Origin: Thalassotalea nanhaiensis
GTDB taxonomy: Bacteria > Pseudomonadota > Gammaproteobacteria > Enterobacterales > Alteromonadaceae
DNA: 64,000 bases
Reading direction: 5' to 3'
Assembly (NCBI RefSeq): GCF_031583575.1
Contig: NZ_CP134146.1
Span: 2,604,001-2,668,000 of the forward strand
Of this stretch, positions 2,695 to 31,349 are shown piece by piece. Within the stretch, counting starts at the first letter, position 1. Each line of letters opens with the position of its first letter. The notes below the pieces were generated by a model, which saw only the letters and a list, made by a program, of their open reading frames with translations, was not told the DNA's origin and made no database searches. A program made the translations under genes and the position numbers.

Positions 2695-2710
2695 TCACCC
2701 GGTAGGGTGA
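2695..2710. promoter_or_regulatory. Palindromic operator candidate, site A
   Basis: TCACCC GGTA GGGTGA: perfect 6-base arms with a 4-base spacer. It is 66 bases upstream of the acyl-CoA dehydrogenase start and downstream of the hydrolase stop. It belongs to a set of seven such sites in this window, nearly all in front of CoA-metabolism genes. Confidence 0.65.
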
Positions 2711-2756
2711 TATTTAGTAAGAAAAATAAAAATAGGTGAGATTTTTGATTAATATT

Positions 2757-3560
2757 TTATTTTGTTTTTGCAACAAAATCTCGGATTAATTTCGGCCAAT
2801 GTTGAAGTTCAGAATAACCTTCAGCAATATGAAGTGTTGAATTAGGCAATACTCGGTGTAATTCAGTTGCCGTTTCAAGCGGGTGGCTTGGATCACCGGT
2901 CCAAGCCAGAATAAGTACAGGTATATCAATAGACATTAGCTCTTCTTTAGCTGGTAAATCAGTCAAAGCGGCTCCTTTGAAAAGGCTTAATAACGTCCTT
3001 CTTTTTATCAGTTTCAGCCCTGCAAATACTCCGTTAACACGCTCTTTCTTAGCTTCAACTAACCACTTTGGTAATAAACGTTCGGGGTTTCTAGCCATGA
3101 GTTTTGCTAAAATACGCCCACCAAGTAACCCGCCAAGCTTTGCTAGTTTATGGTAAAAGTTTACTTGCTCAGCTCTGGTATCCCAGGCAGTCGGAGGATT
3201 CATCAGGATCATGCCCTTTATTCGATGTGGGGCAAGCATAGCGGAGTAAATAGTAGTAGCACATCCCATGGATTGCCCTCCGGCAAAAAACTTGTCTATT
3301 TCTAATGCATTAGCAACGGCTAACATATCATTTGCCAAATTATTCCAACAATAGTCATTAGGTGAAAACGAAGCTTCAGTTTTGCCATGTCCTCTAGCAT
3401 CATACCGTACAAGCCTTGCTTCGGTTTCTAGCTTGTGCCAATCAAATATATCCAATAAGTTTTCACTCTCAATACTCGCTGTTAAGCCATGCCCCCATAC
3501 CAACGGTACACCCTCGCCATTAATTTCAACATTAAATTCTAAACCATTTATATTCATCAA
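2757..3560 (-). CDS. Alpha/beta-fold hydrolase
   Basis: 267 residues with the alpha/beta-hydrolase signature. An oxyanion region VWGHGLTAS lies near residue 22, RYDARGHGKTE near 53, and the nucleophile elbow GGQSMGC near 94-100 gives Ser97 as the nucleophile. An acid in LILAWTGDPSHPL and a late His (QHWPKL) complete a credible triad. It has no signal peptide, so it should be cytoplasmic. It could be an esterase, a C-C bond hydrolase or a thioesterase acting on an intermediate of the neighbouring acyl-CoA pathway; sequence alone does not decide. It lies between the TonB receptor terminator and the acyl-CoA dehydrogenase, in the same orientation. Confidence 0.85.
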   Translation of the reverse strand: MMNINGLEFNVEINGEGVPLVWGHGLTASIESENLLDIFDWHKLETEARLVRYDARGHGKTEASFSPNDYCWNNLANDMLAVANALEIDKFFAGGQSMGCATTIYSAMLAPHRIKGMILMNPPTAWDTRAEQVNFYHKLAKLGGLLGGRILAKLMARNPERLLPKWLVEAKKERVNGVFAGLKLIKRRTLLSLFKGAALTDLPAKEELMSIDIPVLILAWTGDPSHPLETATELHRVLPNSTLHIAEGYSELQHWPKLIRDFVAKTK

Positions 3561-3592
3561 GACCTTCTTGAGTTACTTTAATTATTGGCAAT

Positions 3593-3633
3593 AAAAAACC
3601 ATCAAATTAGATAGATAACTTGATGGTTTAACA
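3593..3633 (-). terminator. Terminator-like hairpin after TonB receptor
   Basis: Inverted repeat AAACCATCAA ... TTGATGGTTT with a short loop, between the receptor stop (3704) and the hydrolase start. Read on the minus strand it ends in a T-rich run, so it fits termination of the thiolase/receptor transcript. Confidence 0.6.
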
Positions 3634-3703
3634 TGACTTTAGCTTAGTTAATCAAACAGCCAACAATGCTGCTAATTTACGTTCAAAGTAGCATTTCTAT
3701 CAG

Positions 3704-6103
3704 TTAGAAATTATAAGTACCTTGCACTGTCACAGTACGCGGCGCATCAGTATAACCAATGTAACCACCGGCTACTAATGGCGTGTCTAAGCCCGCTGAG
3801 AACGTTGTCTCATCAGTTAAGTTTTTGCCAATTAGCGAGACATCCCAAGTATCTTCAGCGGATGCCAGCGAAACGGTCATATTTACTTTACTGAACGAGT
3901 CTTGCTTTAAGTTTTCATCAAGATCACTATCTACGTAGTATTCATCAGAAAAGTTAACATTTAAACGTGCAGCGAACAATAAAGAGCTGCCAATTTCAGT
4001 CTCGTAGTCTAAGAAAATCGATGCTGAAATTTCTGGGGCAAATGGTGTTGTTTCACCTGTTAAGTCACAAACAGATTGCGGGTTAACAGGATCCTTCAGG
4101 ATTGGTGCCGTACATGGACCATTTGCATAATCATCATAAGTAGAGTCTAAAAATGACATAGAACCGCTTAATGTCCAGCTATCACTTAGCACGTATGCAC
4201 CATCAAACTCGATACCTTGCGTTGTTGATTCGGCGGCATTACCAACACTAAAGCCAGTACCTGTCCATGACGTTACTTGTAAGTTATCAAATTTGGTATG
4301 AAATACAGCCACGTTTAAGCGAGCCAAGCCATCAAGAAAATCAGATTTCAATCCTAATTCAAGCCCTAACGCTTCTTCATCTTCAAACACCATATCTTCT
4401 TCAGCCGCAGCTGTATCAGAGTTAAAACCACCGGCTTTAAAGCCCTCTTCAGCAGTAGCATAAAGCATCATGTCTTCATTAATGTCGTACTGAATTTTAA
4501 CTGAAGGGGTAAAATGCGATTCATCATAACTATCTGTGTATTCAGGTGTTTTAACATTAACACCTAGAGCTACCGCGGTAAATGCGCTGTTTGCATCTGC
4601 TGGAATTAAATTATCAAACGTATGATATAACTGTACTTCACCATGGGCGCTTTGACGGAAAACATCTTTTGTATCATCAGTGTAACGGCCGCCAACAGTT
4701 AACCTTAGTGCATCAGTAAAATGATAAGTACCTTGGAAGAACGCCGACAACGTTTCGGTTTCTTGGTTAAAGTTAGATACCCTGTCTAACGATTCTGGTG
4801 CAAATCCAATATCGGTAAAGCTTAAACCACCTAAAGCATCTCTAGGTGCGTTGTATGCAGGCATTAATGCAGGGGTGATTGACGCAACATCAATGTGAGT
4901 TGCTACATCCATTACTAAGTCTGAATCTGAGTAATAAATCCCGGTAATGTAATCAAAGCTGCCACCAAGTGAACTGGCAAATCGTATTTCATGACTGGTT
5001 TGATCAAAATCATGGTCATCAGTAGTATGTAAAAACGGGAACGGCATATAATCTAGATCTTGATGTTCAATTGACTCATAAGCACTATAACCGCCAGTAT
5101 AAGACAAAACCCCACCGGCCAAATCATAATCAATATTTACTGAAACATTATCTGCTTCTACGCCTCTAAATTCACCTTCATAGGCATTATCTGAACTACG
5201 GGTATCATCTAAATTGGTTTCAAAATCATCTTGAACCGAAGGAATAACAGCACCCAAGATAAACCCTGCTAACCCATCTAAAGGCTCTGCACTGATAAAT
5301 TGTGAGGTACTGCCAACACTTTCAGTTTCTGAGTTTTCTGCTTTAAAATGAACAGATAAGTCATCCGTTGGTTGCCAATGCAAAGATAAACGAACAATTG
5401 TTTCCTCTGACTGTGGCTCATCTCTATCTAAATTATTATTCACCATGTAACCGTCAGAAGAAGAATCTTTAACAGCTAAGCGATAACCTAACTCATCTGT
5501 TATACCTCCAGAAAGTACGCCTGTTAAGCCTTGGCTATTATATTCAGGTTCATATGCGGCAATAACTTTACCTTCAAAGTCTGAACCGGCTTCAGCTTTA
5601 GCTGTACTTAGGTTTAATGTACCAGCTATGGTGTTTTTACCAAACAAGATACCTTGCGGACCTCGCAAAATTTCAGCACGTTCCAGGTCTAAAAACGGGG
5701 CGCGAAATTGTTTACTTCTCCCCATGTAAATACCATCAATAAACATACCAACAGATTGCTCGAACGAGCGGTTATTACCAGAGCCAACACCACGCATAAA
5801 AATATTGGTATTGATCGCATTTTCAGAAATACTTAAGTTAGGCACATAATCAGAAATTTCAGATAAGTCCTGTATAGCTGATTTTTCAATTTTATCGCCG
5901 TTTATTGCAGTAATTGACATTGGCACTGATTGAACACTTTGTGAACGCTTCGTTGCCGTTACTTTGATGACTTCAAGACCTTTTAACTTTTCATCTTCGG
6001 CCACATCTGCCGCTTTAGCATTACTGGTGATAAAAAGTGTGGCACCAATAGCTAGTGCAAGTTTAGTCTTTCGTAAAGCCTGTGTATTGTTAATAACTTT
6101 CAT
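3704..6103 (-). CDS. TonB-dependent outer-membrane receptor
   Basis: 799 residues, typical of TonB-dependent transporters. It has a signal peptide (about 1-31, ending SNAKA), a TonB-box-like segment GLEVIKVTATKR near 43-54, a plug domain (VPMSITAING to RGPQGILFGKNTIAGTLN) and a 22-strand barrel ending in a C-terminal aromatic (GTYNF). No siderophore-specific or SusC-like domain is evident. Receptors of this subgroup, beside CoA-activating and beta-oxidation genes, commonly import hydrophobic or aromatic carbon sources; here that is inferred from context. It lies 100 bases downstream of the thiolase in the same direction and ends at a terminator, so it is probably co-transcribed with the thiolase. 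Confidence 0.93.
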   Translation of the reverse strand: MKVINNTQALRKTKLALAIGATLFITSNAKAADVAEDEKLKGLEVIKVTATKRSQSVQSVPMSITAINGDKIEKSAIQDLSEISDYVPNLSISENAINTNIFMRGVGSGNNRSFEQSVGMFIDGIYMGRSKQFRAPFLDLERAEILRGPQGILFGKNTIAGTLNLSTAKAEAGSDFEGKVIAAYEPEYNSQGLTGVLSGGITDELGYRLAVKDSSSDGYMVNNNLDRDEPQSEETIVRLSLHWQPTDDLSVHFKAENSETESVGSTSQFISAEPLDGLAGFILGAVIPSVQDDFETNLDDTRSSDNAYEGEFRGVEADNVSVNIDYDLAGGVLSYTGGYSAYESIEHQDLDYMPFPFLHTTDDHDFDQTSHEIRFASSLGGSFDYITGIYYSDSDLVMDVATHIDVASITPALMPAYNAPRDALGGLSFTDIGFAPESLDRVSNFNQETETLSAFFQGTYHFTDALRLTVGGRYTDDTKDVFRQSAHGEVQLYHTFDNLIPADANSAFTAVALGVNVKTPEYTDSYDESHFTPSVKIQYDINEDMMLYATAEEGFKAGGFNSDTAAAEEDMVFEDEEALGLELGLKSDFLDGLARLNVAVFHTKFDNLQVTSWTGTGFSVGNAAESTTQGIEFDGAYVLSDSWTLSGSMSFLDSTYDDYANGPCTAPILKDPVNPQSVCDLTGETTPFAPEISASIFLDYETEIGSSLLFAARLNVNFSDEYYVDSDLDENLKQDSFSKVNMTVSLASAEDTWDVSLIGKNLTDETTFSAGLDTPLVAGGYIGYTDAPRTVTVQGTYNF

Positions 6104-6204
6104 TAAATTCCTCTCCCAAGGTTACTTCTATTTTTGTCGTTGTTATTATTTTTATTTGATGTTTAATTGCTTAATGCATAAATATTGCTCATTTAGCATA
6201 AGAT

Positions 6205-7398
6205 TTACGTTGTTCTTTCAAAAATGTTGACAAAACCAGCGCTACCAATTCCTCCATTGTGTTGTAAAGCAATTCTGGCGTTTTCAACTTGTCGTTGACC
6301 ACACTGCCCTCTTAGCTGCTTAACTAGCTCTGTTATTTGTGCAAGTCCGGTTGCTCCTAATGGATGGCCTTTTGCCATTAGCCCACCAGATGGGCCGATA
6401 ACAACTTTGCCACCGTAGGTATTCTGTCCTTCTAGAATAAATTTTTCTAAATCATGATCAGCACAAAGCCCCAATGCTGAATAGGTGAATACTTCATTAC
6501 TGGTAAAGCAGTCGTGTAATTCGATAACATCAATATCATCAGGACCAACTCCAGCACTCTCATAAGCTTGCTTACAAGCTTCTTGACTAAGAGCACCAAA
6601 AGTTACATCCAAGACATTTGATTCAAAGTATTGTGGTTTATCACTACACCAACTTGAGCCTTTTAATGTAATATTGATATCTAGGTTATGTTTTTTGGCA
6701 AATTCTTCACTACAGACAATCACGCTGGCAGCACCACAACTTGGCGGGCAAGCAAACAGCTTACGCAAGCCACGATAAAGCGGTGGTTGCTCTAAAACTT
6801 GCTCAATTGTTAATGGTTCACGATAAATTGCGTAAGGATTAAATTCGGCGTGTTTTCGGGCTTTTACCGCGATACTTGCCAACGCTTGTTCGCTAATACC
6901 GTAGTCGTTCATTAAAGCTTCAGCTTGGCAACCAAACATTAATACTGCCGGTGGCAATTGCGCTTCTTGCAGGTCAAGGCTCATCAAATTAACAATGGCA
7001 TCGGTATGGCGTTGCAGCGGACTTGTTCTGTCTGGATACATCATTTCGATTGCACCCGGCGCCATTTGTTCAAAACCTAATGCCATAACACATTCTGAAA
7101 TACCGTATTCAATCGCTTGTGCTGCCAAGGCAAACGCAGTAGAGCCACTGGCGCAGTTATTGTTTACATTGGTCACAGGAATACCACTCATGCCTATACC
7201 ATAAAGTGCAGCTTGTCCTGAGCAGCTATCGCCTTGCACATAGGAGGTAAATGCTTGCTCGATTAAAGAATAATCTAAGCCCGCATCAGTTAATGCTTCT
7301 CTTCCCGCATTGGCCCCCATCACCTCGTAACCGTCACTTCGACCAGGCTTTTTAAATGGAACCATCCCTACTCCACAAATTACTACTTTTCTAGCCAT
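6205..7398 (-). CDS. SCP2/SCP-x type thiolase (lipid-transfer-protein family)
   Basis: 397 residues, a full-length thiolase-fold protein of the SCP-x group. The nucleophilic Cys is C82 in NNNCASGST. A HDCFTSNE motif lies near residue 295, GLMAKGHPLGATG near 345 and QHNGGIG close to the C-terminus. Family members cleave 3-ketoacyl-CoAs, often branched or sterol side chains, or act in retro-aldol reactions with DUF35 partners; no DUF35 gene is seen here. It begins a transcript separate from the upstream acyl-CoA synthetase, because a strong terminator lies between them, and has its own palindromic operator 135 bases upstream. Confidence 0.9.
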   Translation of the reverse strand: MARKVVICGVGMVPFKKPGRSDGYEVMGANAGREALTDAGLDYSLIEQAFTSYVQGDSCSGQAALYGIGMSGIPVTNVNNNCASGSTAFALAAQAIEYGISECVMALGFEQMAPGAIEMMYPDRTSPLQRHTDAIVNLMSLDLQEAQLPPAVLMFGCQAEALMNDYGISEQALASIAVKARKHAEFNPYAIYREPLTIEQVLEQPPLYRGLRKLFACPPSCGAASVIVCSEEFAKKHNLDINITLKGSSWCSDKPQYFESNVLDVTFGALSQEACKQAYESAGVGPDDIDVIELHDCFTSNEVFTYSALGLCADHDLEKFILEGQNTYGGKVVIGPSGGLMAKGHPLGATGLAQITELVKQLRGQCGQRQVENARIALQHNGGIGSAGFVNIFERTT

Positions 7399-7532
7399 TA
7401 CTTATCCTGTCATGCCAAATATCAGTGTTGTAAAAATCAACTTGTTTTAACGGCTTATTTATTAATAAATCAGTCGTTAATTACAATTAATTACCTTTGT
7501 AAATAAGCTAATGCTTAATCAATCACTGTGAT

Positions 7533-7548
7533 TCACCCTATCGGGTGA
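7533..7548. promoter_or_regulatory. Palindromic operator candidate, site B
   Basis: TCACCC TATC GGGTGA: perfect arms, 4-base spacer, 135 bases upstream of the thiolase start. Same motif as sites A and C. Confidence 0.65.
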
Positions 7549-7655
7549 TATTGTTATTTTTTTATTAATCAGATTAATATCCATCTATATCAATGAGTTA
7601 AAATTGAAATACAAACTATCTAAAAGTGTTTTTATAAAAAAAAAGCAAAAAAAAA

Positions 7656-7674
7656 GGTCACTAATAAAGTGACC
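7656..7674 (-). terminator. Rho-independent terminator after acyl-CoA synthetase
   Basis: GGTCACT, a 5-base loop and AGTGACC. On the minus strand the stem is followed by an uninterrupted run of nine T, a T-rich stretch that continues past the next GC. It ends the reductase/acyl-CoA synthetase transcript. Confidence 0.85.
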
Positions 7675-7718
7675 CATTGCATTTGTTAAAAACTAGTTAA
7701 GCATCAATAAATAAACAG

Positions 7719-9275
7719 TTAATTAACCATGCGATTTTCGCTGTTCCAATACTTTTTACGAATTTCAGTTTTTAATACTTTACCAGCAGGACTACGTGGT
7801 AAATCGTCGACAAAATCGATAGATTTAGGCGCTTTTACACTGCCTAATTCTTGTTTAACCAAATTAATTAAGGTTTGCTCTTCAATGATGCTACCCGGTT
7901 TGCAAAGTACGATAGCTTTTACAGCTTCACCCCACTTTTCATCGGGAATACCAATTACCGCGCATTCTTGCACTTCAATTTGAGAGTTAAGTACTTGCTC
8001 AATTTCATTTGGGAATACATTAAAGCCACCGGTAATGATCATGTCTTTTTTTCGATCAACAATTTGGATATAACCATCTTTATCCATAACACCGACATCA
8101 CCAGTATGAAGCCAACCATCTATTTGAGCTTCTTGCGTTGCTTCTGGGTTATTGTAATAACCAGGATTAACAATATCGCCTTTGACACAAATTTCTCCAG
8201 CCTGCCCCATAGGTAGTGGTTTATTATCATCGTCCATAATTGCGACTTGATTTAAAACACAGGGACGACCGACAGTTTTCAGTCTGTCTTCATTAATTGA
8301 ACCATCAGGGTTTATATAATCCCACGGCGCTTTTGCACAAATTGCCGCTGGAGCTTCTGATTGCCCAAACACCTCGGTCATAACTGGACCAAAAACCTTT
8401 ATCGCTTCTTTTAATTTTGATAAAGAAACCGGCGCAGCTGCTACGATAAAATGTTGTAGTGATGAATAGTCATATTTACTTACATCCTCGTGTGCCAGCA
8501 TCATATACATAACAGTTGGCGGTAGGAAAAAGTGGGTAATTTTATGTTGCTCAATAACCTTTAAAATTTCACCGGGATCAACGGCTGTCATAATAGTGTT
8601 AGTACCACCACGGGCAAAGTGCATAGCGCCCATAAGACCAGCAGAATGAGTCATTGGCGCGACCACTAAATGATTAGTGTTATCATAATAATTGAAATGC
8701 GCATAAAAATTGGAAAACATCGTTTCCAATGCTTTATTTGACATCATAACGCCTTTCGATTTACCGGTAGTACCGCCAGTTGGGAAAATGGCCATAATGT
8801 CAGAATCATTGCCTTCGCCCATTTGATGATGCTCATCGGCAGATACTAACCAGTTTTGCAAATTTTCACCATCAAGGTCTTTATCAATACAAACAATTTG
8901 TTTTAGGTTTGGCGCATCATGAGCAATGGCTAACGCTTCATCTTCATAACTGGAATGAAACATTAATAAATCGCCATCAAAACGATGCAGTAAATCAGTA
9001 TTTATCTCAACCGGGTTACGCGGGTTTACTGGCAGCCATACCGCCTCGGCGCGAAACAAACCAATTAAGCATTCAAAAGCAATATTTGAATTAGGTCCTA
9101 AAATACCTATTTTGGTGCCTTTACCGAACCCTTGTAGAGTAAGTGAACTTGCAAGCTTATGGCTAAATTCAAGAACCTGTTTATAGGTTCTCTTTTCACC
9201 AGTTGTCAATTCATGAAAGGCAATATTATCAGGGTATAATGCTGCGCCCTGATCAAAAAAATCAATAATACGCAT
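7719..9275 (-). CDS. AMP-binding acyl-CoA synthetase
   Basis: 518 residues, a member of the ANL (adenylate-forming) superfamily. The phosphate-binding motif FPTGGTTGKSKG lies near residue 165. GQSEAP occupies the A5 position, WLHTGDVG with DRKKDMIITGG is the A7/A8 hinge, and the C-terminal SPAGKVLKTEIR carries the catalytic Lys of A10. Role: ATP-dependent activation of a carboxylic acid to its CoA thioester, the entry step for the dehydrogenase and thiolase beside it. It starts 11 bases after the reductase gene, so the two form one operon. Chain length or ring specificity cannot be read from sequence. Confidence 0.92.
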   Translation of the reverse strand: MRIIDFFDQGAALYPDNIAFHELTTGEKRTYKQVLEFSHKLASSLTLQGFGKGTKIGILGPNSNIAFECLIGLFRAEAVWLPVNPRNPVEINTDLLHRFDGDLLMFHSSYEDEALAIAHDAPNLKQIVCIDKDLDGENLQNWLVSADEHHQMGEGNDSDIMAIFPTGGTTGKSKGVMMSNKALETMFSNFYAHFNYYDNTNHLVVAPMTHSAGLMGAMHFARGGTNTIMTAVDPGEILKVIEQHKITHFFLPPTVMYMMLAHEDVSKYDYSSLQHFIVAAAPVSLSKLKEAIKVFGPVMTEVFGQSEAPAAICAKAPWDYINPDGSINEDRLKTVGRPCVLNQVAIMDDDNKPLPMGQAGEICVKGDIVNPGYYNNPEATQEAQIDGWLHTGDVGVMDKDGYIQIVDRKKDMIITGGFNVFPNEIEQVLNSQIEVQECAVIGIPDEKWGEAVKAIVLCKPGSIIEEQTLINLVKQELGSVKAPKSIDFVDDLPRSPAGKVLKTEIRKKYWNSENRMVN

Positions 9276-9286
9276 GGTATTTCTCC

Positions 9287-10405
9287 CTATGAATTAATCA
9301 TCTTATAATCAACCAAACCAAAGCTTTTCAGTTGATTGGCTAATTCGTTATGCCCTACCGCTTGACAAGCTGATGAGAAACCAGATGTTTTTTGTAAGCC
9401 ACCAATTAACAAACTAGCGGTTGCTGCTTGTAAAGCACCGGTAGTTATATATCCGCACGAGGTTCGTACTTCACAGGTAACTGAATCAAACGAACCGCTA
9501 CCATGTACAATATCAAGGCAGCGATGCACGAGTTTGTTTTCACGTGGCGGCATAGTAGCTTGCATGCTATTACCGTACTCAGCTAACTTCGCTGCTTTTT
9601 CTTCTGTCGGCAAATGCTTGATCTCAGTTTCATAGGTATTTTGTAAGTCCAACACCATTTCCATCATCGCGCGGTTTTGAGTCGCAGTTAGTTGTTGTAC
9701 ATTGCGCACGCGAGGATCATGTTCAAAATAAAGTGGCAACATACCACCGCCCCAAGGGTGTGCTAGCAAATTATCGGCACGGCCAGGAATGTTCACTTCA
9801 TAACCTTTAGCTACAGGCCAGTTCACACGTTGATTGTTTTCTAATTTAAATGATTGATCGGCAATACTAAACATGGCAAAAATAGTTTGGAATGAACCAA
9901 CCGTCGGAACCAGTGTAGGAGCGGTAAGACAATTTAAAGTATCAATTTGACTTTGTTCTAACACCATATGCGCACCAATTTCTAACGAGGTATACATGTA
10001 CGATGTGCCTGGTGCCAGGACCAAATTCTTTTCAGCGAATTTTGGCCCTAATTCTTCTTGGATCTTAGTAATGAAATTCATTTCACCACCGGTATCTAAA
10101 TAATGACAACCAGCTTCTAATGCAGCTTCAACAACAGGCTGTCCAAAATACATAAATGGCCCAACCGTATTACAAATAACCTTTGCACCTTTAAATAATT
10201 CGGTTAATGCTTTTTTGGTGTGCTCTACTTGAACAACCTCATAATCTGCGGTTTCAATACCCGGCACCGTTGCCATTGCAGCTTTAATTTTTTCCGCATC
10301 TCTACCTGCTGCAATGAATGAAATACCATATTCACGTAAAAATTCAGCAACTAATTTACCGGTATAACCACTTGCCCCATATAGCACTACAGATTTATTT
10401 GTCAT
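9287..10405 (-). CDS. Saccharopine-dehydrogenase-like NAD(P)-binding reductase
   Basis: 372 residues. It opens with a Rossmann fingerprint GASGYTGKLVAEF at 9-21 and continues with AGRDAEKI, VICNTVGPF and CHYLDTGGE, as in the saccharopine dehydrogenase NADP-binding family. That family includes trans-acting enoyl reductases as well as true saccharopine enzymes, and nothing here points to lysine metabolism. Its place at the head of an operon with an acyl-CoA synthetase suggests a reductase or dehydrogenase acting on the imported substrate; this is inference. Its promoter faces the SDR gene across a shared intergenic region that carries two operator-like palindromes. Confidence 0.83.
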   Translation of the reverse strand: MTNKSVVLYGASGYTGKLVAEFLREYGISFIAAGRDAEKIKAAMATVPGIETADYEVVQVEHTKKALTELFKGAKVICNTVGPFMYFGQPVVEAALEAGCHYLDTGGEMNFITKIQEELGPKFAEKNLVLAPGTSYMYTSLEIGAHMVLEQSQIDTLNCLTAPTLVPTVGSFQTIFAMFSIADQSFKLENNQRVNWPVAKGYEVNIPGRADNLLAHPWGGGMLPLYFEHDPRVRNVQQLTATQNRAMMEMVLDLQNTYETEIKHLPTEEKAAKLAEYGNSMQATMPPRENKLVHRCLDIVHGSGSFDSVTCEVRTSCGYITTGALQAATASLLIGGLQKTSGFSSACQAVGHNELANQLKSFGLVDYKMINS

Positions 10406-10531
10406 AATTTTTTCCCTTCGAAATTTTGCCGTATCGCTCTAAAAATGAGTCACTCAGTTAGAAACGAAAACGATTTTTAATATTATTTTGAAATGTGCTA
10501 TTTACGCTAAACGTTTAAAAACGGTGCAGAA

Positions 10532-10547
10532 TCACCCCAATGGGTGA
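10532..10547. promoter_or_regulatory. Palindromic operator candidate, site C (divergent promoter)
   Basis: TCACCC CAAT GGGTGA: perfect arms. It sits almost midway between the divergent starts, 127 bases from the reductase ATG and about 126 from the SDR ATG, so one bound regulator could control both. Confidence 0.65.
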
Positions 10548-10588: not shown

Positions 10589-10604
10589 TCATCCGAACGG
10601 GTGA
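10589..10604. promoter_or_regulatory. Imperfect palindromic operator candidate, site D
   Basis: TCATCC GAAC GGGTGA: one mismatch from the consensus, 57 bases from site C and 69 bases upstream of the SDR start. It looks like a second, weaker site for the same regulator. Confidence 0.45.
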
Positions 10605-10672: not shown

Positions 10673-11503
10673 ATGTTAAACAAACGTTTCCCCGAAAAGC
10701 GCGCATTTATCACCGGCGGCGCTAGTGGCCTGGGTTTAGCCTATGCTAAAAAATTAGCACGTAACAATTGGCGAGTAGCAATTGCTGATATTAATGAACA
10801 GCGTTTAGAAGAAGCTAAATTAGAACTTGAAGCTTTAGGCGCTACTGTTATCACTTTGGTGGTGGACGTAACAAGCAAAGAGCAGCAACAAGACGCTGCA
10901 GACCAACTTGAACAGGTTTGGGGAGGTGTTGATTTAGTGTTTAATAATGCAGGTATTGGCAGCTGCGGTAAACTAAATGAGCATGATGACGAAGAATGGC
11001 ATCGAGTAATAAATATTGATTTGTGGAGTGTTATTCACGGCTGTCGTATTTTTGCGCCGTTACTAAAACGAACCGGTGGTGGCCACATTATCAATACGGC
11101 ATCAAGTGCTGGCACGTTATGTTTAGCTGAAATGGCTGGCTATAATGTGGCTAAATCAGGCGTAGTAGCCTTGTCTGAAACGTTAAATGTGGAATTATCG
11201 ACAGATAACATTGGTGTAACGGTTGTTTGCCCTACCGTGTTAAAAACCAATATTGGCGAGTCTTTAAAAGGTGAAACTAATTTTGAGAAAAACATTGCTC
11301 AACAAATTAATGAGTCAAAATTTACTCCCGAAATGGTCGCGGATAAAACCTTTGAAGGTATTTTAAAAAATAAATTGTATGTAATGCCACAAAATGATGC
11401 CCGTTGGGTATGGACGATTAAGCGTTGGATGCCTGAAAAGTTCACAAAGTTAATGACGTACTTATATAAAAATCGTAAATGGATCTATTCCCACCTAGAT
11501 TAA
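10673..11503 (+). CDS. Short-chain dehydrogenase/reductase (SDR)
   Basis: 276 residues, classical SDR. The cofactor motif TGGASGLGLAYA lies at 14-25, DINEQRLE suggests NAD preference, and NNAGIGS is near 90. The catalytic Ser is in NTASSAGTL, and YNVAK supplies the Tyr and Lys. It should oxidise or reduce a hydroxyl/keto group in the cytoplasm. It is the only plus-strand gene of the catabolic block and diverges from the reductase/acyl-CoA synthetase operon. Two operator-like palindromes lie upstream, and a bidirectional terminator follows. Confidence 0.92.
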   Translation: MLNKRFPEKRAFITGGASGLGLAYAKKLARNNWRVAIADINEQRLEEAKLELEALGATVITLVVDVTSKEQQQDAADQLEQVWGGVDLVFNNAGIGSCGKLNEHDDEEWHRVINIDLWSVIHGCRIFAPLLKRTGGGHIINTASSAGTLCLAEMAGYNVAKSGVVALSETLNVELSTDNIGVTVVCPTVLKTNIGESLKGETNFEKNIAQQINESKFTPEMVADKTFEGILKNKLYVMPQNDARWVWTIKRWMPEKFTKLMTYLYKNRKWIYSHLD

Positions 11504-11585: not shown

Positions 11586-13715
11586 TCAATTGATAGAAAT
11601 TGAATAAATGTCTGCATCAATTGTGCTTTTCAGTGTTAATAAAAAGCTCGCTTTGGTAGCCGGCGCAATTCCAAAATAAATTCTTACGGTGCCTGCTGGG
11701 TAAGTTGCAATGATGCTTTGCTCGCCATTCATTGATCGGCGCTTTATTTGGTCATATTTTGTCGTTCTTTGAACATAATAAATATTTTCATCTTGCCAAA
11801 AATAATTACCGAAGTCATTTATCGCCAGATCTTTAATAAAAAGTTGGCTCTTTTGGCTATCTTGATCAAATTGCCAAATCCCCATTTCTCCCTCTTTACT
11901 CATATATAGATGACCGTCAGGGCCTTCTATTGCAAATTTTTCGTTACCTGCAGTTAATTGAGTAATCGAGTTATCACTAATAGTTAATTTATAAATTCCG
12001 GAGCTTCCGTTTGTTTCTGCGGCTAAATAAATAGAACGTCCATCTGCTGACCAATTCATGCTGTTTGCTGTAAGAGTACCAAGATCTATAGCTGTTAACT
12101 GGCCGTCAGGTAAATCCCCTACGTACCATTTCAAGTCTTCATTTGCTTTGTGCTTAATCGCAACTAAGAAATGCTTTCCTGTAGGAGATACCCTATGCAT
12201 AATTGCTGCACCGATGCCTTTAGTTAAATTTTTAGAGCCTTGTTCGGTTTTGAGCCACAGATCCCATTCATTGGAGCGGTTTGAGACAAATAATATATCG
12301 CCAGTGTTATTGACATACTGGCCATAAAGGTCGCGAGATGACGATGATATTCGACGGCCCTCCTTGCTATCAGTAAAAGATTGTTGGCTAATATATTCTT
12401 GGCTCACATGTTTTGAGTAATACAATGTAGAGGTTTGAGAATTGAACGTTAAATTACCTGAAGTACTTATCCCTTGTACAACTTGCTCAGCTTTAGTTGT
12501 CGGGTTTACTGAATATGTTTGGTATTCCCCGCCATTTAATATATTGGTATAAATATTACCCTTTTGATATTCCCACGTCAGACCAGTAATGGATAATTTA
12601 TTGGACAATAACACAGTTACTTCTCCACTTTTATCGAGTAGCATTAGGCTCGCTTTACTTATATTCTCTCTAATAAAGGCAACTTGTTTTGAATCAGCAG
12701 AAAAAACAGCGCTAACATCTCTATCTTCGGCTTTGGGGAAACTTATTTGTTCAATGGATTTCTTTTCAAAGTCAAACTTAAATAAAGCAATACCTTTACT
12801 TAGTTTTTTTGAAAACAGTAAATACCGTCCATCAGGTGACCAATTTAAAGCACTGCTGTATGAGTTATAAAAACAATCGCTGGCAATTGGGTTATCCTGA
12901 TTCGTTATTAATTGGTGCAAACGTACCTGACAACGCCCCTCTTTTGAAATCCTTAAATACGCTAAGCTATTACCACTTGGCGACCAACTAGGCGAGAATT
13001 CACTTTCTTTTTCCGAAGTTAGCAACCTGGCTGGGATCTGATTGTCTTTTAAATCTTTTATGTAAATTTGGCTGTTATGTTTGTTTTTCAGCCACCTAAA
13101 AGCCAAGTATCTACCATCTGATGATACCGATGGATGCTCTTCAATCCCTTCTAAATTAGTTATTTTAACTGGAGGTGATATTGGCCGATTAAGTTCTGTG
13201 GAATTTGTTTTAACAACAAATCTATAAGAGAGTGTGATAATAATAATAATCACACTTAGTAAAGTGGCTAAAAATAGGCCTTTACGATTCATTACTTGAT
13301 TAGATAACTTAATAGAAAGTAAATTGTTAACCAACCCAGATGGCCACGATTTCTGACTCTCAGGGTAAGTAGAGTTTTCGACAATAGGCTCTGGAATATA
13401 TTCTAGCTTATAGCCAACTTTGGGTAAGGTTTTAAAGTAAACATTACTATCTACGCCTAGTTCGTCGAATACTTTTCGAATATACCACATGGCATTAGTG
13501 TATCCACGTTTCCCAACGGGGTAATTGTTGTTCCAGAGGATCTGAATCGCTAAATCTCGATTTACCGTTTGATTCTCATCAAGCAAAAACAACTTAAAAA
13601 AGTCAAAAACTTTCACGGGAAATTTGATCGATTGGCAATTATTGCTAATTGTCATGTCAGTACAATTAACAATTAAATTTTCTAATTTATATTCGTTGTA
13701 TTGTATGTCGATCAT
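11586..13715 (-). CDS. ToxR/CadC-type winged-helix membrane regulator with beta-propeller
   Basis: 709 residues from the ATG at 13715; a 5' extension from a TTG at 13772 would only translate hexanucleotide repeats (PL repeats), and a GAGAG ribosome site supports the ATG. An OmpR-type winged helix covers about 1-95 (VKVFDFFKLFLLDENQTVNRDLAIQILW, KVGYKLEY at the wing; shown here as split motifs). A single membrane helix GLFLATLLSVIIIIITLSY follows near 145-170. The large outer part has WD40/TolB-like repeats such as HPSVSSDGRYLAFRW, SPSWSPSGNSLAYL and NWSPDGRYLLFSK. It probably senses an envelope signal and regulates DNA directly from the membrane. The adjacent secreted protease is a natural target candidate, but that is not shown. 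Confidence 0.87.
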   Translation of the reverse strand: MIDIQYNEYKLENLIVNCTDMTISNNCQSIKFPVKVFDFFKLFLLDENQTVNRDLAIQILWNNNYPVGKRGYTNAMWYIRKVFDELGVDSNVYFKTLPKVGYKLEYIPEPIVENSTYPESQKSWPSGLVNNLLSIKLSNQVMNRKGLFLATLLSVIIIIITLSYRFVVKTNSTELNRPISPPVKITNLEGIEEHPSVSSDGRYLAFRWLKNKHNSQIYIKDLKDNQIPARLLTSEKESEFSPSWSPSGNSLAYLRISKEGRCQVRLHQLITNQDNPIASDCFYNSYSSALNWSPDGRYLLFSKKLSKGIALFKFDFEKKSIEQISFPKAEDRDVSAVFSADSKQVAFIRENISKASLMLLDKSGEVTVLLSNKLSITGLTWEYQKGNIYTNILNGGEYQTYSVNPTTKAEQVVQGISTSGNLTFNSQTSTLYYSKHVSQEYISQQSFTDSKEGRRISSSSRDLYGQYVNNTGDILFVSNRSNEWDLWLKTEQGSKNLTKGIGAAIMHRVSPTGKHFLVAIKHKANEDLKWYVGDLPDGQLTAIDLGTLTANSMNWSADGRSIYLAAETNGSSGIYKLTISDNSITQLTAGNEKFAIEGPDGHLYMSKEGEMGIWQFDQDSQKSQLFIKDLAINDFGNYFWQDENIYYVQRTTKYDQIKRRSMNGEQSIIATYPAGTVRIYFGIAPATKASFLLTLKSTIDADIYSISIN

Positions 13716-13734
13716 GAAGCTCTCTTTATCTATC

Positions 13735-13773
13735 GATGGCAATGGCAATGGCAATGGCAATGGCAATGGCAAT
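13735..13773. repeat. Hexanucleotide tandem repeat in the 5' region of the regulator
   Basis: Five perfect copies of AATGGC at 13741-13770, a sixth near-copy (GATGGC) at 13735-13740 and a partial copy after. It lies 20-58 bases upstream of the ATG chosen for the CadC-like regulator, inside the probable leader or promoter. Confidence 0.9.
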
Positions 13774-14176
13774 TTAGAATACTATTAGGTAGTTAAATTC
13801 AATTAGATTTCAATGAAACTTTTATTATCTAGCGATAGCGTGTACTAATGCGACAAGGGGGCTAATGAAAATAACATTGTAGTCCTCTTACAAACTTAAT
13901 ATTTACAATCTTCCTAATTGGTACTGGCTAATGTTATTAAACAATTTTTTGTTAGTTGAAAATAGGCTAAAGACATAAGTAAATGAAAACATCGCCCCAT
14001 ACAACAAATAAATTACAATTTAATCACAATTTAACACCTACAAAATATCAATTGACTGAATAATCATAGAGTTATAAAGCAACCACACTCGCAATTGAGG
14101 ATTAATTAATGGTTAATTTTTAAACTACCTCCTAACAGCGAAGACTCCATTGTAAAGGAGGCAACTGACAAATCTT
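13774..14176. other. Gene-free stretch upstream of the CadC-like regulator
   Basis: AT-rich, with no credible coding frame. It should hold the promoter of the minus-strand regulator. A possible hairpin, CTCCT near 14130 with AGGAGG near 14157, is visible. No further feature can be supported. Confidence 0.4.
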
Positions 14177-14192
14177 TCACCCGAAAGGGTGA
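14177..14192. promoter_or_regulatory. Palindromic motif copy, site E
   Basis: TCACCC GAAA GGGTGA, with pairing that extends to TTTCACCC / GGGTGAAA. It matches the operator motif but is about 460 bases upstream of the CadC-like regulator and just behind the protease terminator, so its role is less clear than that of the other sites. Confidence 0.45.
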
Positions 14193-14198
14193 AAATAT

Positions 14199-14228
14199 AA
14201 AAGCCAGCTATTTTCATAACTGGCTTTT
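14199..14228 (-). terminator. Terminator of the subtilase gene
   Basis: AAAAGCCAG, a 12-base loop and CTGGCTTTT, 51 bases beyond the protease stop. On the minus strand the stem ends in TTTT followed by an AT-rich run. Confidence 0.7.
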
Positions 14229-14278
14229 CAAAATCGATTGCTTATTTACAAACGATATTAATGAAACAATGTATATTT

Positions 14279-24886: not shown

Positions 24887-25564
24887 ATGGCTAGACCCGT
24901 AAAAACAGAGCATGGTAAAGGTAATGTTGAATGGACTAAGCAGCAGTTGATCAATGCTGCGGCCGAACAATTTTCTAAACTTGGTTTTCAGGGAGCATCA
25001 CTTAGTAAAATTAGAGAGAAAGTTGGCGTTAAAAACTCAACGATTGTTTACCACTTTAAGTCCAAAGAAGGGTTATATTTAGCCGTTACTGAACACTTAG
25101 AAAAAAGCTTTGCCAAGATGATAAATGACTTGGTTGAGCAACATGCAGACGAACCAGCGATAGAGCGGTTTTATCAGTTCTGTTATACCCTTCAACAATG
25201 GGGCTCAAACCAACAATACTTTACTAGTATTGCCATCCAAGAGATGATGAATAGAGAACTGCACAGTGCCAACAGCATGTTTTACCAAAACTTTGGTAGG
25301 CGTTTAAATCAAACAATTGAGTTTATCAAAGGTCATGATGGAGCAGAAACATGGACGAAGGTAAACTGGAAAATCTTTATCGTAAATGTGTTTTTATCAA
25401 TCCTTATTGGTCAGGCGGTTTCAGTTGCAATACCTATCGCCTTACAAATTGATGAGCCTACTTACAAACAGCAGCACATCAATGAGGTATTTAGAAGCCA
25501 ATTATTAGCATTAGTTAAAGATAAGCATACGGCTGAACAGTATTTAGAATTAAAACTTTCTTAA
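24887..25564 (+). CDS. TetR-family transcriptional regulator
   Basis: 225 residues. The N-terminal DNA-binding domain is typical: QLINAAAEQFSKLGFQGAS at about 21-39, then SKIREKVGVKNSTIVYHFKSKEGLYLAV, here read as helix-turn-helix at about 40-67. The C-terminal two thirds form a helical ligand-binding and dimer domain with a central hydrophobic stretch (WKIFIVNVFLSILIGQAVSV). It is divergent from the desaturase fusion, with a perfect long inverted repeat between them, so it most likely controls that gene and its own, with a fatty acid, acyl-CoA or hydrocarbon as possible inducer. A bidirectional terminator follows. Confidence 0.92.
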   Translation: MARPVKTEHGKGNVEWTKQQLINAAAEQFSKLGFQGASLSKIREKVGVKNSTIVYHFKSKEGLYLAVTEHLEKSFAKMINDLVEQHADEPAIERFYQFCYTLQQWGSNQQYFTSIAIQEMMNRELHSANSMFYQNFGRRLNQTIEFIKGHDGAETWTKVNWKIFIVNVFLSILIGQAVSVAIPIALQIDEPTYKQQHINEVFRSQLLALVKDKHTAEQYLELKLS

Positions 25565-25590: not shown

Positions 25591-25613
25591 AAAACAACTG
25601 TGTAGCGTAGTAT

Positions 25614-26795
25614 TTATTTTATTGCCTTGTTTTGTTGCAGCTGCACGATTTCATCTTGGGTATAATCAAAATGAGTTAGTAATTTTTCGGTAAAACTTGG
25701 ACTTGTTTGGTTAACAAACATAGTGTTATCTGCGGAAGATGCAAACTTAATCGCAGGTGCCACTTGTTTTACTATGTCACCTGTCATGGCTTTTACCTCA
25801 GTTACCATACCTCTGTCGCGCATCAGATCAGACTTAGCCGCTTCAGAAACCGTTAAAACTGGTTCTACACAGGCATCAAGAGCAGTAAAGGTTTCTAACC
25901 AATACGCTAACGAATGCTCAATTATCCGAACGGAAATATCATCTCGCAATGCGAGTTGCTCTTGCTCATCAGTGCTAAAACCACGTACTAACCAATCATT
26001 TTGTCCAAGAGCATTAAAGAACATCTCTGCAAATTTTGGCTCTAGACTGCCAACTGATATGTAGCGATTATCAGCGGTTTGATAGTAGCCATAAAAATGG
26101 CCACCATTAAGAGTATTACCACCCAGTGATGGGTCAACATCAACAGCAACTGCACCAGCGCCAAACATTCCGGTTAACGCAAATGCCGCATCGGTCATAC
26201 TAATATCTAAATGCTGCCCGGCTCCGCTTATGCCCCTTTCAATAACAGCAGCCATGATCCCCATTACGGCATGGTGTGAACCACCTGCAATATCAGCTAT
26301 TTGAGTGCCACTTAAAACAGGTCCTGTCGCTTTTGTACCACTAAAACTTGCTAACCCTGACAATGATAAATAATTAATATCGTGCCCGGCTCTGTCTTTT
26401 AAACAACCAGTTTGACCGTAACCTGTAATTGAACAGTAAATTAATTTGGGATTTATCGCCTTTAAGCTTTCATAATCCAGACCAAACTTAGCCATAACCC
26501 CTGGTCGGAATTGTTCAACAATTACATCATATTCGCCAATGAGTTTTTTCACAACATTAACTGCAGCTTGTTGCTTTAAATCTAAAGCGATGACTTCTTT
26601 GTTACGATTTAAGTTCAAAAAAGCATATGAATGTTGATTTAACTTTGGCTCAAAACCATTCACTAAATCATAACGGCCTAGGGCTTCTATTCTTAATACT
26701 TGGGCGCCCATATCGGCAAGCATCATAGTTGCGTAAGGGCCAGGTAATAATGTAGATAAATCAAGAACTTTTAATTGTGATAATGGACCAGCCAT
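25614..26795 (-). CDS. CaiB/BaiF-type CoA-transferase or 2-methylacyl-CoA racemase
   Basis: 393 residues, family III CoA-transferase fold. It opens PLSQLKVLDLSTLLPGPYAT, continues with MGAQVLRIEALGRYD and LNLNRNKEVIALDLK, and has RAGHDINYLSLSG, the Asp of which is the usual catalytic residue (near residue 150). EPVLTVSEA near the end is also typical. Two reactions are possible: CoA transfer between acids, or racemisation of 2-methylacyl-CoA before beta-oxidation of branched chains. The racemase reading fits an SCP-x thiolase and acyl-CoA dehydrogenases elsewhere in the same motif set, but is inference. An operator-like palindrome lies 91 bases upstream. Confidence 0.9.
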   Translation of the reverse strand: MAGPLSQLKVLDLSTLLPGPYATMMLADMGAQVLRIEALGRYDLVNGFEPKLNQHSYAFLNLNRNKEVIALDLKQQAAVNVVKKLIGEYDVIVEQFRPGVMAKFGLDYESLKAINPKLIYCSITGYGQTGCLKDRAGHDINYLSLSGLASFSGTKATGPVLSGTQIADIAGGSHHAVMGIMAAVIERGISGAGQHLDISMTDAAFALTGMFGAGAVAVDVDPSLGGNTLNGGHFYGYYQTADNRYISVGSLEPKFAEMFFNALGQNDWLVRGFSTDEQEQLALRDDISVRIIEHSLAYWLETFTALDACVEPVLTVSEAAKSDLMRDRGMVTEVKAMTGDIVKQVAPAIKFASSADNTMFVNQTSPSFTEKLLTHFDYTQDEIVQLQQNKAIK

Positions 26796-26885
26796 AGAGC
26801 GGATAATACCTTATAGTTTATAATTTTACGGTTAACAATCAAGTTGTAATGCATAACATTTTAGTTAGGTATTGTTATTTAAACA

Positions 26886-26901
26886 TCGCCCAAAAGGGTG
26901 A
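26886..26901. promoter_or_regulatory. Palindromic operator candidate, site F
   Basis: TCGCCC AAAA GGGTGA: one mismatch in the left arm, 91 bases upstream of the CoA-transferase start. Member of the TCACCC-N4-GGGTGA set. Confidence 0.5.
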
Positions 26902-26914
26902 AATATAAAATGGC

Positions 26915-26947: not shown

Positions 26948-26962
26948 TATATGAAGAGGAGA

Positions 26963-28237: not shown

Positions 28238-28262
28238 AATTTACTTTAGCTGTTGTGGATAC

Positions 28263-29284: not shown

Positions 29285-30064
29285 ATGAATAATATAGCTA
29301 AAGCCTTGTTAACGGCTATTGGTTTTTCTATGCCTTTTACAGCAACAGCTAAGGGCTGGGAATTCGAATTTACACCTTACTTATGGCTTGCCGCTAATGA
29401 AGGGAGCACGGGCGCATATACCACAGGACCGTTGGGTAATGAAATCTCATCAATTTCTGAAGTAGATATTAATATACAAGATTTATTAGATCATTTAGAT
29501 GGTGGTGCTATGTTTAACTTTGCCGCTAAAAAAGGCAATTGGCTAACATATGCTGAATTTACTTATCTAACAGTGTCAGATGAACAATCGGCGACAACAG
29601 GGCCTATTGGAGGTTCGTCGGTTGATGTAGAGCTGGGCATAGATGGAACTATATTAGACGTTGCTGTTGGTTACCGTGTTGTACAAAGCAACGGCTTTGA
29701 TTTATACCCTTATGTTGGCTTTAGGTATATTGATTTAGAGTCTGACTTAAAACTTGATGGTTCAAATGGCATTATAGCAATAGATACAACCTTAGGTGAT
29801 GATTGGGTCGATCCAGTTGTTGGTGTTCATGCTGCGTGGGAGATTAATGATACTTTTGCTTTTCAGGGGCGTATAGAACTTGGCGGATTTCAAGACCAAC
29901 CTGAAGAACATTACACGGTAACCGCAACTTTAAACCATAAGCTGTCTGATAACTGGTCTTTAAAGTACTTTTATCGTTACTTAAAAGTGGATTATGCAGA
30001 TAATGGGTTTATTTATGATATGGAAGTAACCGGCCCGGGCATGGGGGCTACGTATAACTTTTAA
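29285..30064 (+). CDS. Outer-membrane beta-barrel protein, paralogue 2
   Basis: 259 residues. The signal peptide ends near residue 22 (TATAKG), then WEFEFTPYLWLAANEGSTGA, matching paralogue 1 almost residue for residue at this point. Shared later blocks include MFNFAAKKGNWLTYAEFTYL, GYRVVQSNGFDLYPYVGFRY and KYFYRYLKVDYADNGFIYDM; the C-terminal residue is Phe, as in outer-membrane barrels. It and paralogue 1 are transcribed away from each other over a gap of about 225 bases, which suggests an old inverted duplication. Function unknown. Confidence 0.8.
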   Translation: MNNIAKALLTAIGFSMPFTATAKGWEFEFTPYLWLAANEGSTGAYTTGPLGNEISSISEVDINIQDLLDHLDGGAMFNFAAKKGNWLTYAEFTYLTVSDEQSATTGPIGGSSVDVELGIDGTILDVAVGYRVVQSNGFDLYPYVGFRYIDLESDLKLDGSNGIIAIDTTLGDDWVDPVVGVHAAWEINDTFAFQGRIELGGFQDQPEEHYTVTATLNHKLSDNWSLKYFYRYLKVDYADNGFIYDMEVTGPGMGATYNF

Positions 30065-30078
30065 TTAATTTTAAAAAT

Positions 30079-30108
30079 AAAAGGAGCTAAAAAAGATTAG
30101 CTCCTTTT
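30079..30108. terminator. Bidirectional terminator
   Basis: AAAAGGAGCTAA, short loop, TTAGCTCCTTTT followed by TA and more T. It separates the plus-strand barrel from the convergent acyl-CoA dehydrogenase. Confidence 0.85.
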
Positions 30109-30116
30109 TAGTTTTC

Positions 30117-31268
30117 TTAAATTTTTCCGATCACACCTTTACCGATGATTTCCTTCATGATTTCTGAAGTACCACCATAAATGCGCTGTACACGAGCATC
30201 GACATAAAAACGTGAAATTGGATATTCTTTCATATAACCATAACCGCCGAACATTTGCAGTGCCATATCGATCACTTTACATTCCATTTCACAGGCTGAA
30301 TATTTCGCCATACTGGCTTTCTCTGTGCTCAGTTTTTTATCGATTAGCAACTCTTTATAGTGTTCCATCATAATACGGTGTAACTCTACTTGTGTGGCCA
30401 TTTCAGCAATTTTTTGACGGATATCTTGAAGTTTTGCTAATGGTGCGCCAAACGCCTGACGCTCTTTTATATATTCAAGCGCAAGTTCAAGCGCTCCTTC
30501 AGCATGAGCAGTACCAATACAAGCACAAGCTAAACGCTCACGCGGCAACTCATGCATTAAACCTAAGAAACCACGATCTAACTCCCCAAGTAAGTCATCT
30601 TCTGTAAGTTCAACATTATCAAAAAATAACTCTGAAGTATCTGCAGCAGCTTGGCCCATTTTGTCGAGGTTTTGACCTCGCTGGAAACCAGCTTTGTCAC
30701 CATCAACTAAAAACAGCGATGTGCCTTTTGATCCGGCTACCGTTAAGTTGGTTTTAGCAGCAACAATATACAAAGAAGAGTTTTGTCCATTTGTAATAAA
30801 CGTTTTAGAGCCACTTAAACTCCAACCCGTGGCAGTTTTAGTTGCTGTAGTTTTCATACCTTGTAAATCACTACCAACGCCTGGTTCAGTCATACAGATA
30901 GCGCCAATACACTCACCTGAGATCATACCAGGCAAATACTTTTGTTTTTGTGCTTGTGTGCCAAGGTTAAGAACATAATGCGCGGCAATATCTGAATGAA
31001 CAATTAAATTACAAGCAAGCGAGAAATATCCTGCTTTGGCAATTTCTTCAACAACCAACATGTTAAAATCAACACTTACACCAAAGCCTCCATCCTCTTC
31101 AGGGATATCACAACATAACAGCCCTTCTTCACCCATTTTCAGATAAAATTCTTTTGGAATTTGTTTCGCTTCTTCCCAAGCTTCATAGTTAGGTGCAACT
31201 TCGTTTTCAATAAAACGAATAACTGTTTCTCTGAAAATGCTCAATTCTTCTTGTAATTCACTTCTCAT
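30117..31268 (-). CDS. Acyl-CoA dehydrogenase, long-chain type
   Basis: 383 residues, normal family length. Flavin and substrate motifs: CMTEPGVGSDLQG (about 125-137), SGSKTFITNG (152-161) and QAFGAPLAKLQ, with ALQMFGGYGYMKEYP near 340. The final IYGGTSEIM has Gly where medium-chain enzymes carry the catalytic Glu. Instead Glu244 in LPRERLA matches the alternative base of the long-chain and isovaleryl enzymes. Role: first step of beta-oxidation of a long or branched acyl-CoA, with ETF as acceptor. An operator-like palindrome lies 66 bases upstream of the ATG, the same distance as for the acyl-CoA dehydrogenase at 1349. Confidence 0.93.
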   Translation of the reverse strand: MRSELQEELSIFRETVIRFIENEVAPNYEAWEEAKQIPKEFYLKMGEEGLLCCDIPEEDGGFGVSVDFNMLVVEEIAKAGYFSLACNLIVHSDIAAHYVLNLGTQAQKQKYLPGMISGECIGAICMTEPGVGSDLQGMKTTATKTATGWSLSGSKTFITNGQNSSLYIVAAKTNLTVAGSKGTSLFLVDGDKAGFQRGQNLDKMGQAAADTSELFFDNVELTEDDLLGELDRGFLGLMHELPRERLACACIGTAHAEGALELALEYIKERQAFGAPLAKLQDIRQKIAEMATQVELHRIMMEHYKELLIDKKLSTEKASMAKYSACEMECKVIDMALQMFGGYGYMKEYPISRFYVDARVQRIYGGTSEIMKEIIGKGVIGKI

Positions 31269-31333
31269 ATTGTTCTCTATTAATTTATTTTAACCCTATT
31301 GAATCAATGTAATGTTTGTCAGCAACAAAAAAA

Positions 31334-31349
31334 ACACCCTTACGGGTGA
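31334..31349. promoter_or_regulatory. Palindromic operator candidate, site G
   Basis: ACACCC TTAC GGGTGA: one mismatch in the left arm, 66 bases upstream of the acyl-CoA dehydrogenase start. Confidence 0.55.

Follow-up and report, generated by a model that had tools for sequence, protein, structure and literature searches.

Palindromic Sites and Genes of the Window

The window analyzed here is a stretch of 64,000 nucleotides from Thalassotalea nanhaiensis (positions 2604001-2668000 of the 4.31-Mb contig NZ_CP134146.1), in which seven copies of the palindrome TCACCC-N4-GGGTGA stand among genes typical of coenzyme A (CoA)-dependent catabolism. Judged from sequence, this palindrome is probably the operator of a LAL (MalT/AlkS-type) LuxR-family activator that would serve about 13 transcription units. 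The features concerned are given below in window coordinates, where a gap is the number of bases between a site and a predicted -10 hexamer, and "kept" means that a counterpart precedes the orthologous gene in the relatives G150 and G151 (the T. nanhaiensis genome itself being G000).

1-1199, minus strand: 5' part of luxR2, candidate LAL/MalT-type activator, running off the left edge of the window
1349-2629, minus strand: ACAD426, acyl-CoA dehydrogenase, target of operator A
2667-2672, minus strand: predicted -10 TAGGTT, gap 22 from operator A
2695-2710, minus strand: operator A, perfect, before ACAD426; kept in G150 and G151
6205-7398, minus strand: SCP2-type thiolase, target of operator B
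7505-7510, minus strand: predicted -10 TAGCTT, gap 22 from operator B
7533-7548, minus strand: operator B, perfect, before the SCP2-type thiolase; kept in G150 and G151
7719-9275, minus strand: AMP-binding acyl-CoA ligase, downstream of DUF5938, probable target of operator C
9287-10405, minus strand: DUF5938/saccharopine-reductase-like protein, target of operator C
10504-10509, minus strand: predicted -10 TAGCGT, gap 22 from operator C
10532-10547, minus strand: operator C, perfect, before DUF5938/AMP ligase; kept in G150 and G151
10589-10604, plus strand: operator D, one mismatch, before SDR276; kept in G150 and G151
10673-11503, plus strand: SDR276, target of operator D
14149-14154, minus strand: predicted -10 TACAAT, gap 22 from operator E
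14177-14192, minus strand: operator E, perfect, facing a CadC/PD40 gene 405 bases off
25614-26795, minus strand: CaiB-type protein, nearest PDB match alpha-methylacyl-CoA racemase, target of operator F
26858-26863, minus strand: predicted -10 TAAAAT, gap 22 from operator F
26886-26901, minus strand: operator F, one mismatch, before the CaiB-type gene; kept in G150
30117-31268, minus strand: ACAD383, acyl-CoA dehydrogenase, target of operator G
31306-31311, minus strand: predicted -10 TACATT, gap 22 from operator G
31334-31349, minus strand: operator G, one mismatch, before ACAD383; kept in G150 and G151

All seven copies lie where a first-pass annotation of the letters had placed them, with the perfect and single-mismatch status it had assigned, and A and G each stand 66 bases from their own ATG, as it had also noticed. 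Its claim that six of the seven precede acyl-CoA dehydrogenase, thiolase, reductase, SDR, CaiB-type and second acyl-CoA dehydrogenase genes is likewise borne out, the reductase being the DUF5938 protein; the seventh, operator E, is the one facing the CadC/PD40-type gene. The window holds nothing beyond these seven at up to two mismatches, and the count compares with a shuffle mean of 0.74, none of 100 shuffles having reached seven. Operators C and D occupy one shared divergent promoter region and most likely serve different genes. Operator D has TANNNT, the most conserved bases of the -10 hexamer, at neither gap 22 nor gap 23, with TAAATA standing at gap 22, and for operator E no counterpart before an orthologue was seen in G150 or in the fetched part of the G151 region.

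Genome-Wide Distribution

The T. nanhaiensis genome contains 16 places with at most one mismatch, six of them perfect, against zero for the reversed-pattern control. Rather than being evenly spread, 13 of the 16, including all six perfect ones, fall within one 100-kb island (contig 2534712-2635349, 2.3% of the genome), of which the window is the right-hand part and covers seven of the 13 island sites. The corresponding binomial P of ∼3e-19 is an optimistic figure, because the outermost sites themselves set the limits of the island. No island site falls inside an open reading frame (ORF); the one at 2539299 only touches the beginning of an ORF call that is over-long, its orthologues having their starts further downstream. 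The distance to the start of the faced gene is at most 135 bases for 12 of the 13. In eight cases that gene encodes an acyl-CoA dehydrogenase, a thiolase, a DUF5938 protein, an SDR or a CaiB-type protein. In the remaining five it is an AraC regulator gene (twice), a CadC-like gene (twice) or a DUF1254/1214 gene, so that the regulon is wider than CoA catabolism; it also extends beyond the window. The CoA-catabolism regulon proposed in the first-pass annotation stands in its clustering and its core genes.

Promoter Geometry

When the promoters are aligned on the site and read gene-ward, TANNNT appears as a second element. It stands at exactly gap 22 in nine of 14 own-genome promoters (the 13 island sites, with 2538238 counted in both directions), a number reached by none of 2000 shuffles and none of 5000 rotations. 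Allowing gap 22 or 23, it is found at 11 of 13 sites gene-ward and at 1 of 13 in reverse (Fisher 2e-4). A direction had to be assigned to the five sites flanked by divergent genes, 2538238 being given to SDR255, which has the -10, though the LysR gene is slightly nearer; at the eight sites outside divergent regions the figures are 8/8 gene-ward and 1/8 in reverse. The chance rate of TANNNT at the gap in the region's intergenic DNA is 0.066, and a control set of 29 perfect sites from cluster-free family genomes (drawn from 42 such sites in 34 other family genomes) gave a single match at gap 22/23 in 58 directions. Across the six genomes that carry the LuxR family described below, all 12 SDR255 and ACAD449 promoters have a -10 at gap 22 or 23.

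The fixed gap places the centre of the dyad near -42.5, with the transcription start inferred from the -10, and leaves no room for a separate -35 element, a class II-type placement. The site thereby overlaps the -35 position, which is where activators of the LuxR type bind, and it fits an activator operator rather than a terminator, a repetitive extragenic palindromic (REP) element or a repressor site.

The three outlying sites of the genome lie inside an 864-aa ORF, inside a gene that we take from its first residues to be purA-like, and before a response-regulator-like gene, and one of the three has a -10 at the fixed gap. This one, TCACCCTTTCGGGTTA (G000:C1:1499385-1499400, L023, minus strand), has TANNNT at gap 22 and stands 178 bases before the response-regulator-like gene, making it a possible distant member of the regulon. 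The sequence TCACCCCATTGGGTGC at G000:C1:4123197 recurs in many of the relatives' genomes listed and, because it lies inside the purA-like gene in its own genome, is probably conserved coding sequence rather than an operator.

Conservation in Relatives

Of the 15 genomes of the genus, four carry the LAL-LuxR family: G000, G150, G151, and G154. Extending the search to these relatives, as the first-pass annotation had suggested, shows that clustered perfect sites recur in G150, with 16 places at up to one mismatch, of which 12, including all six perfect, lie in a 134-kb region, and in G151, with 15 places, of which 11, including all five perfect, lie in a 189-kb region. G154 has seven such places, with one perfect and one single-mismatch site in its cluster. 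Counterparts before orthologous genes exist for six of the seven window sites in G150 and for five of seven in the partly fetched G151 region. Genomes without LAL-LuxR show 2-12 single-mismatch places against 0-10 for reversed-pattern controls, so that counting at this stringency is useless as a genome-level test. Perfect sites are absent from the listed LuxR-free genomes G148, G149, G087, G139, G152, G052, and G115, a listing that leaves out the genus members G153, G155, G156, and G157. It is perfect sites and clustering that separate genomes with LAL-LuxR from those without. A scan of 147 family genomes found 35 with any perfect site, G000 having six and the next highest three.

In 37 orthologous promoter pairs (G000, G150, G151, and G154; LysR rows excluded; ungapped), identity is 98.2% in the arms, 75.7% in the N4 spacer, 46.0% over the 30 bases upstream, 63.4% in the 22-base gap, 86.5% at the three -10 bases, and 56.8% over the 30 bases beyond; the sites were picked by sequence, which favours arm identity.

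LuxR1 and LuxR2 as Candidate Regulators

The best candidate for the regulator is a pair of LAL/MalT-type LuxR proteins rather than the TetR protein encoded in the window, as far as sequence comparison can tell. LuxR1 (881 aa, contig 2552574-2555219) and LuxR2 (877 aa, contig 2602566-2605199, straddling the left window edge) are 39% identical, with nearly the same recognition helices. Both end in a GerE/LuxR helix-turn-helix (PF00196; 56.4 and 64.6 bits). The N-terminal STAND ATPase domain matches MalT 8bob over residues 10-398 (E 2e-27; profile E 6e-42; Foldseek rank 1), and the central TPR sensor domain matches MalT domain III (1hz4; TM-score 0.80 on target length, E 1e-4) in a structure model of mean pLDDT 76.2.

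Family-wide, LAL-LuxR is present in 6 of 395 genomes (E ≤1e-100), namely G000, G150, G151, G154, and two of another genus, G215 and G353; among 369 class and 394 order genomes it was found in the own genome only (E ≤1e-90), the three samples overlapping. Five of the six carry the site at common promoters. G215 has two perfect sites genome-wide, both in the cluster, before SDR255 and ACAD449, along with nine scattered single-mismatch places. G353 has the same enzymes, and none of its seven single-mismatch places is on the cluster contig; its SDR255 and ACAD449 promoters carry CTACCCTTATGGGTAG and CTACCCATTAGGGTGG, both with TANNNT at gap 22. The pattern CTACCCN4GGGTAG occurs at three places in G353 (up to one mismatch; reversed control one), two of them these promoters. 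Because the variant pattern by itself occurs in chance numbers (1-4 per genome, controls 1-4), its support is limited to where two of the three G353 matches lie. The G353 LuxR is more divergent, and its altered recognition helix has IKFHLK in place of the (V/I)K(T/S)HLK of the other eight proteins; the changed position presumably corresponds to a base-contacting residue of NarL. A search of the open-access literature on NarL contact residues returned nothing relevant by title.

Several observations weigh against assigning the operator to LuxR1 and LuxR2. The covariation of helix and operator comes from one genome, G353. No site with up to two mismatches stands directly before luxR1 or luxR2. 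G115 and G152 lack LAL-LuxR and yet have 12 scattered places each at up to one mismatch. Two of the 13 island sites, those of DUF1214-470 and SDR276, are without TANNNT, and this element was noticed and first tested on the same alignment, the out-of-sample cases being those of G215 and G353 (4/4). All six genomes also encode a GlxA-like AraC protein in the cluster DNA fetched, at 66.7-84.0% identity. As to control of the luxR genes, luxR2 begins 149 bases downstream of ACAD426, and hence of operator A, on the same strand, with a terminator-like hairpin (1317-1295) between, and luxR1 follows two small genes that have a two-mismatch site (2557070) with a -10 at gap 23; read-through feedback onto the luxR genes is possible.

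A LuxR-family fragment of 78 residues (55% identity) was found in the Colwellia metagenome-assembled genome N1M-Bin_8 (L056:10001-10234), beside phenol-hydroxylase-type-looking genes, as the sole match of a contig scan with two N-terminal peptides. That genome has six scattered one-mismatch sites, none perfect and none near the fragment, which is possibly a remnant.

Proposed Mechanism

Building on the site, its clustering and conservation, the fixed -10 spacing and the co-occurrence with LuxR, we propose that an ATP-binding LuxR activator senses a pathway compound, which would act as inducer, and that a LuxR dimer then binds the palindrome via its C-terminal GerE helix-turn-helix. Centred ∼42.5 bases before the predicted transcription start, the site would replace the -35 element, and the activator would recruit RNA polymerase to the -10 lying 22-23 bases downstream (class II activation). 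Some 13 transcription units may be switched on in this way, for import and degradation of a compound metabolized as a methyl-branched acyl-CoA, and with them the two AraC regulators. The earlier regulon reading is in this sense supported and sharpened, the palindrome being most likely the activator operator of a new LAL/MalT-type regulon.

More tentatively, the two paralogous LAL sensors may share one operator set over two duplicated clusters, such that two ligands could fire one regulon, and the joint change of outer operator bases and LuxR helix in the sister genus might form a co-evolution series for the LAL class. The ∼13 promoters of constant geometry, together with the natural variant in the other genus, offer a test set for MalT-type DNA recognition, and the operator gives an entry point to an uncharacterized catabolic island.

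Comparison With Known Systems

We know of few LAL regulators with a defined operator and regulon, and one abstract calls the family poorly studied. MalT of E. coli has the same architecture as LuxR1 and LuxR2 (STAND ATPase, TPR, GerE helix-turn-helix). The boxes bound by MalT are short, GGGA(T/G)GA, and variously arranged, whereas here one symmetric 16-bp palindrome recurs at fixed spacing, and the regulon is not one for maltose. We take GGGTGA to resemble the half-sites of CsgD, MalT, and NarL; to our knowledge, the motifs of PsrA, FadR, FadP, and LiuR do not resemble TCACCC-N4-GGGTGA.

The excerpted text of PMC8784404 describes AlkS, which acts at PalkB in P. putida GPo1 and A. borkumensis, as a similarly large MalT-type LuxR activator beside a hydrophobic-substrate catabolic cluster, with an inverted repeat adjacent to the -35 as operator. 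That repeat is set apart by its description as 20 bp, compared with 16 bp here; moreover, in GPo1 feedback sites precede the gene for AlkS itself, whereas neither luxR gene here is directly preceded by a site, and here there are two paralogues and ∼13 promoters. The lux box of LuxR-type quorum activators is, in the portion of PMC3376562 consulted, an inverted repeat centred at -42.5, as predicted here, but it measures 20 bp, and the present proteins are of LAL type without an acyl-homoserine-lactone domain. PsrA, FadR, FadP, and LiuR likewise control CoA catabolism over several operons, yet they are TetR, GntR, or MerR proteins, and PsrA and LiuR are termed repressors (PMC3223726, PMC5343134, both in excerpt).

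The open-access literature searched yielded no related report of the TCACCC/GGGTGA palindrome as an operator, none of CsgD binding to CGGGTGAG, and none of a Colwellia LuxR regulon with a TonB-dependent receptor and acyl-CoA dehydrogenase. Both the regulator class and the geometry have precedents, while the operator, the regulon, and the pair of regulators appear to be new as far as that literature goes.

Alternative Regulators and Functions

Ownership of the operator by an AraC-family activator of the island is unlikely, though it is the best placed of the alternatives. Three such proteins are encoded, at the following contig positions:

2551571-2552566: GlxA-like AraC (DJ-1 and HTH_18)
2601456-2602472: AraC2
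2533590-2534624: AraC1

The GlxA-like protein is the main rival because it alone, besides LuxR, is present in all six genomes within the cluster DNA fetched (53-168 kb for each), and its helix-turn-helix is also slightly different in G353. The genes for AraC1 and AraC2 are preceded by sites of their own, and AraC2 co-occurs with the clusters in the genus. In the fetched DNA, however, AraC1 is not present in G154, G215, or G353, nor is AraC2 in G215 or G353 (no whole-genome search for AraC2 was made), although sites or site variants persist in these genomes, and G115 has AraC2-like proteins (39-40% identity) yet neither clustered nor perfect sites. The strict palindrome is also unlike the usual direct repeats of AraC proteins, to which exceptions exist, such as the inverted repeat of the AraC/XylS regulator AlkR (PMC8784404, in excerpt).

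Still less probable is a TetR, LysR, or CadC-like protein of the island, or an unlinked regulator, possibly a repressor. Genes for TetR (window 24887-25564) and LysR lie within the island, with site 2538238 between LysR and SDR255, and the even symmetry of the palindrome would be in keeping with a TetR dimer. A typical LysR box (T-N11-A), by contrast, has an odd centre. In the cluster DNA fetched, each of TetR, LysR, and CadC is lacking in two or more of the six genomes, the intergenic region between TetR and desaturase in G353 has a different palindrome of its own, and a centre fixed near -42.5 is activator geometry, so that these proteins are disfavoured as binders. That the palindromes are intrinsic terminators or REP-like repeats is very improbable: a 6-bp stem with a 4-base loop and a loose terminator pattern at three of the seven window sites (7533, plus; 10589, plus; 31334, minus) would allow it, but for five of the 13 island sites the flanking genes diverge, so that no transcript ends there, separate longer hairpins (7675-7655 and 14228-14199) stand between upstream gene ends and sites B and E, and there are only 16 copies genome-wide with a fixed -10 spacing.

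Genes of the Island and Possible Pathway

By Pfam, the island contains two paralogous catabolic clusters ∼60 kb apart in opposite orientation. One (contig 2539311-2547256) holds ACAD449, DUF5938, AMP ligase, thiolase, and a TonB receptor, ACAD449 being named through homology to ACAD orthologues, outside the Pfam scan; the other (window 1349-10405) holds ACAD426, a hydrolase, a TonB receptor, thiolase, AMP ligase, and DUF5938. The island further encodes SDRs, the CaiB-type protein, a desaturase-ferredoxin fusion, subtilases, CadC/PD40 proteins, and several proteins of the DUF1254/1214 kind. The PDB matches of the thiolase (SCP2-thiolase type 1, E 1e-105) and of the CaiB-type protein (alpha-methylacyl-CoA racemase, 1x74, E 1e-54) hint at 2-methyl-branched substrates. 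Because the best NCBIfam match of the CaiB-type protein is a formyl-CoA transferase model, far below cut-off, the genes point weakly to catabolism of a 2-methyl-branched acyl-CoA compound. Among the open-access matches listed, nothing relevant was found on the isoprenoid/racemase side of such a pathway.

In G151 there is one more thiolase copy, which has a perfect site of its own (G151:C1:1830322). Pairs of a giant subtilase (S8, 1239-1732 aa) and a CadC-like PD40 protein are repeated at contig 2572777-2594349 and window 11586-19477, and sites 2583613 and 14177, plus the two-mismatch site 2594490, face CadC-like genes. Several DUF1254/DUF1214 proteins are encoded at contig 2533590-2606700, with five full-length pairs by Pfam in the flank; no report of DUF1214 and DUF1254 in degradation was found in the open-access literature. 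No site at up to two mismatches precedes the desaturase-ferredoxin fusion of the island. On L102 of G353, the palindrome TGTACC-N4-GGTACA lies between the divergent TetR (28730, minus) and desaturase fusion (28918, plus) genes and is a candidate operator of the G353 TetR.

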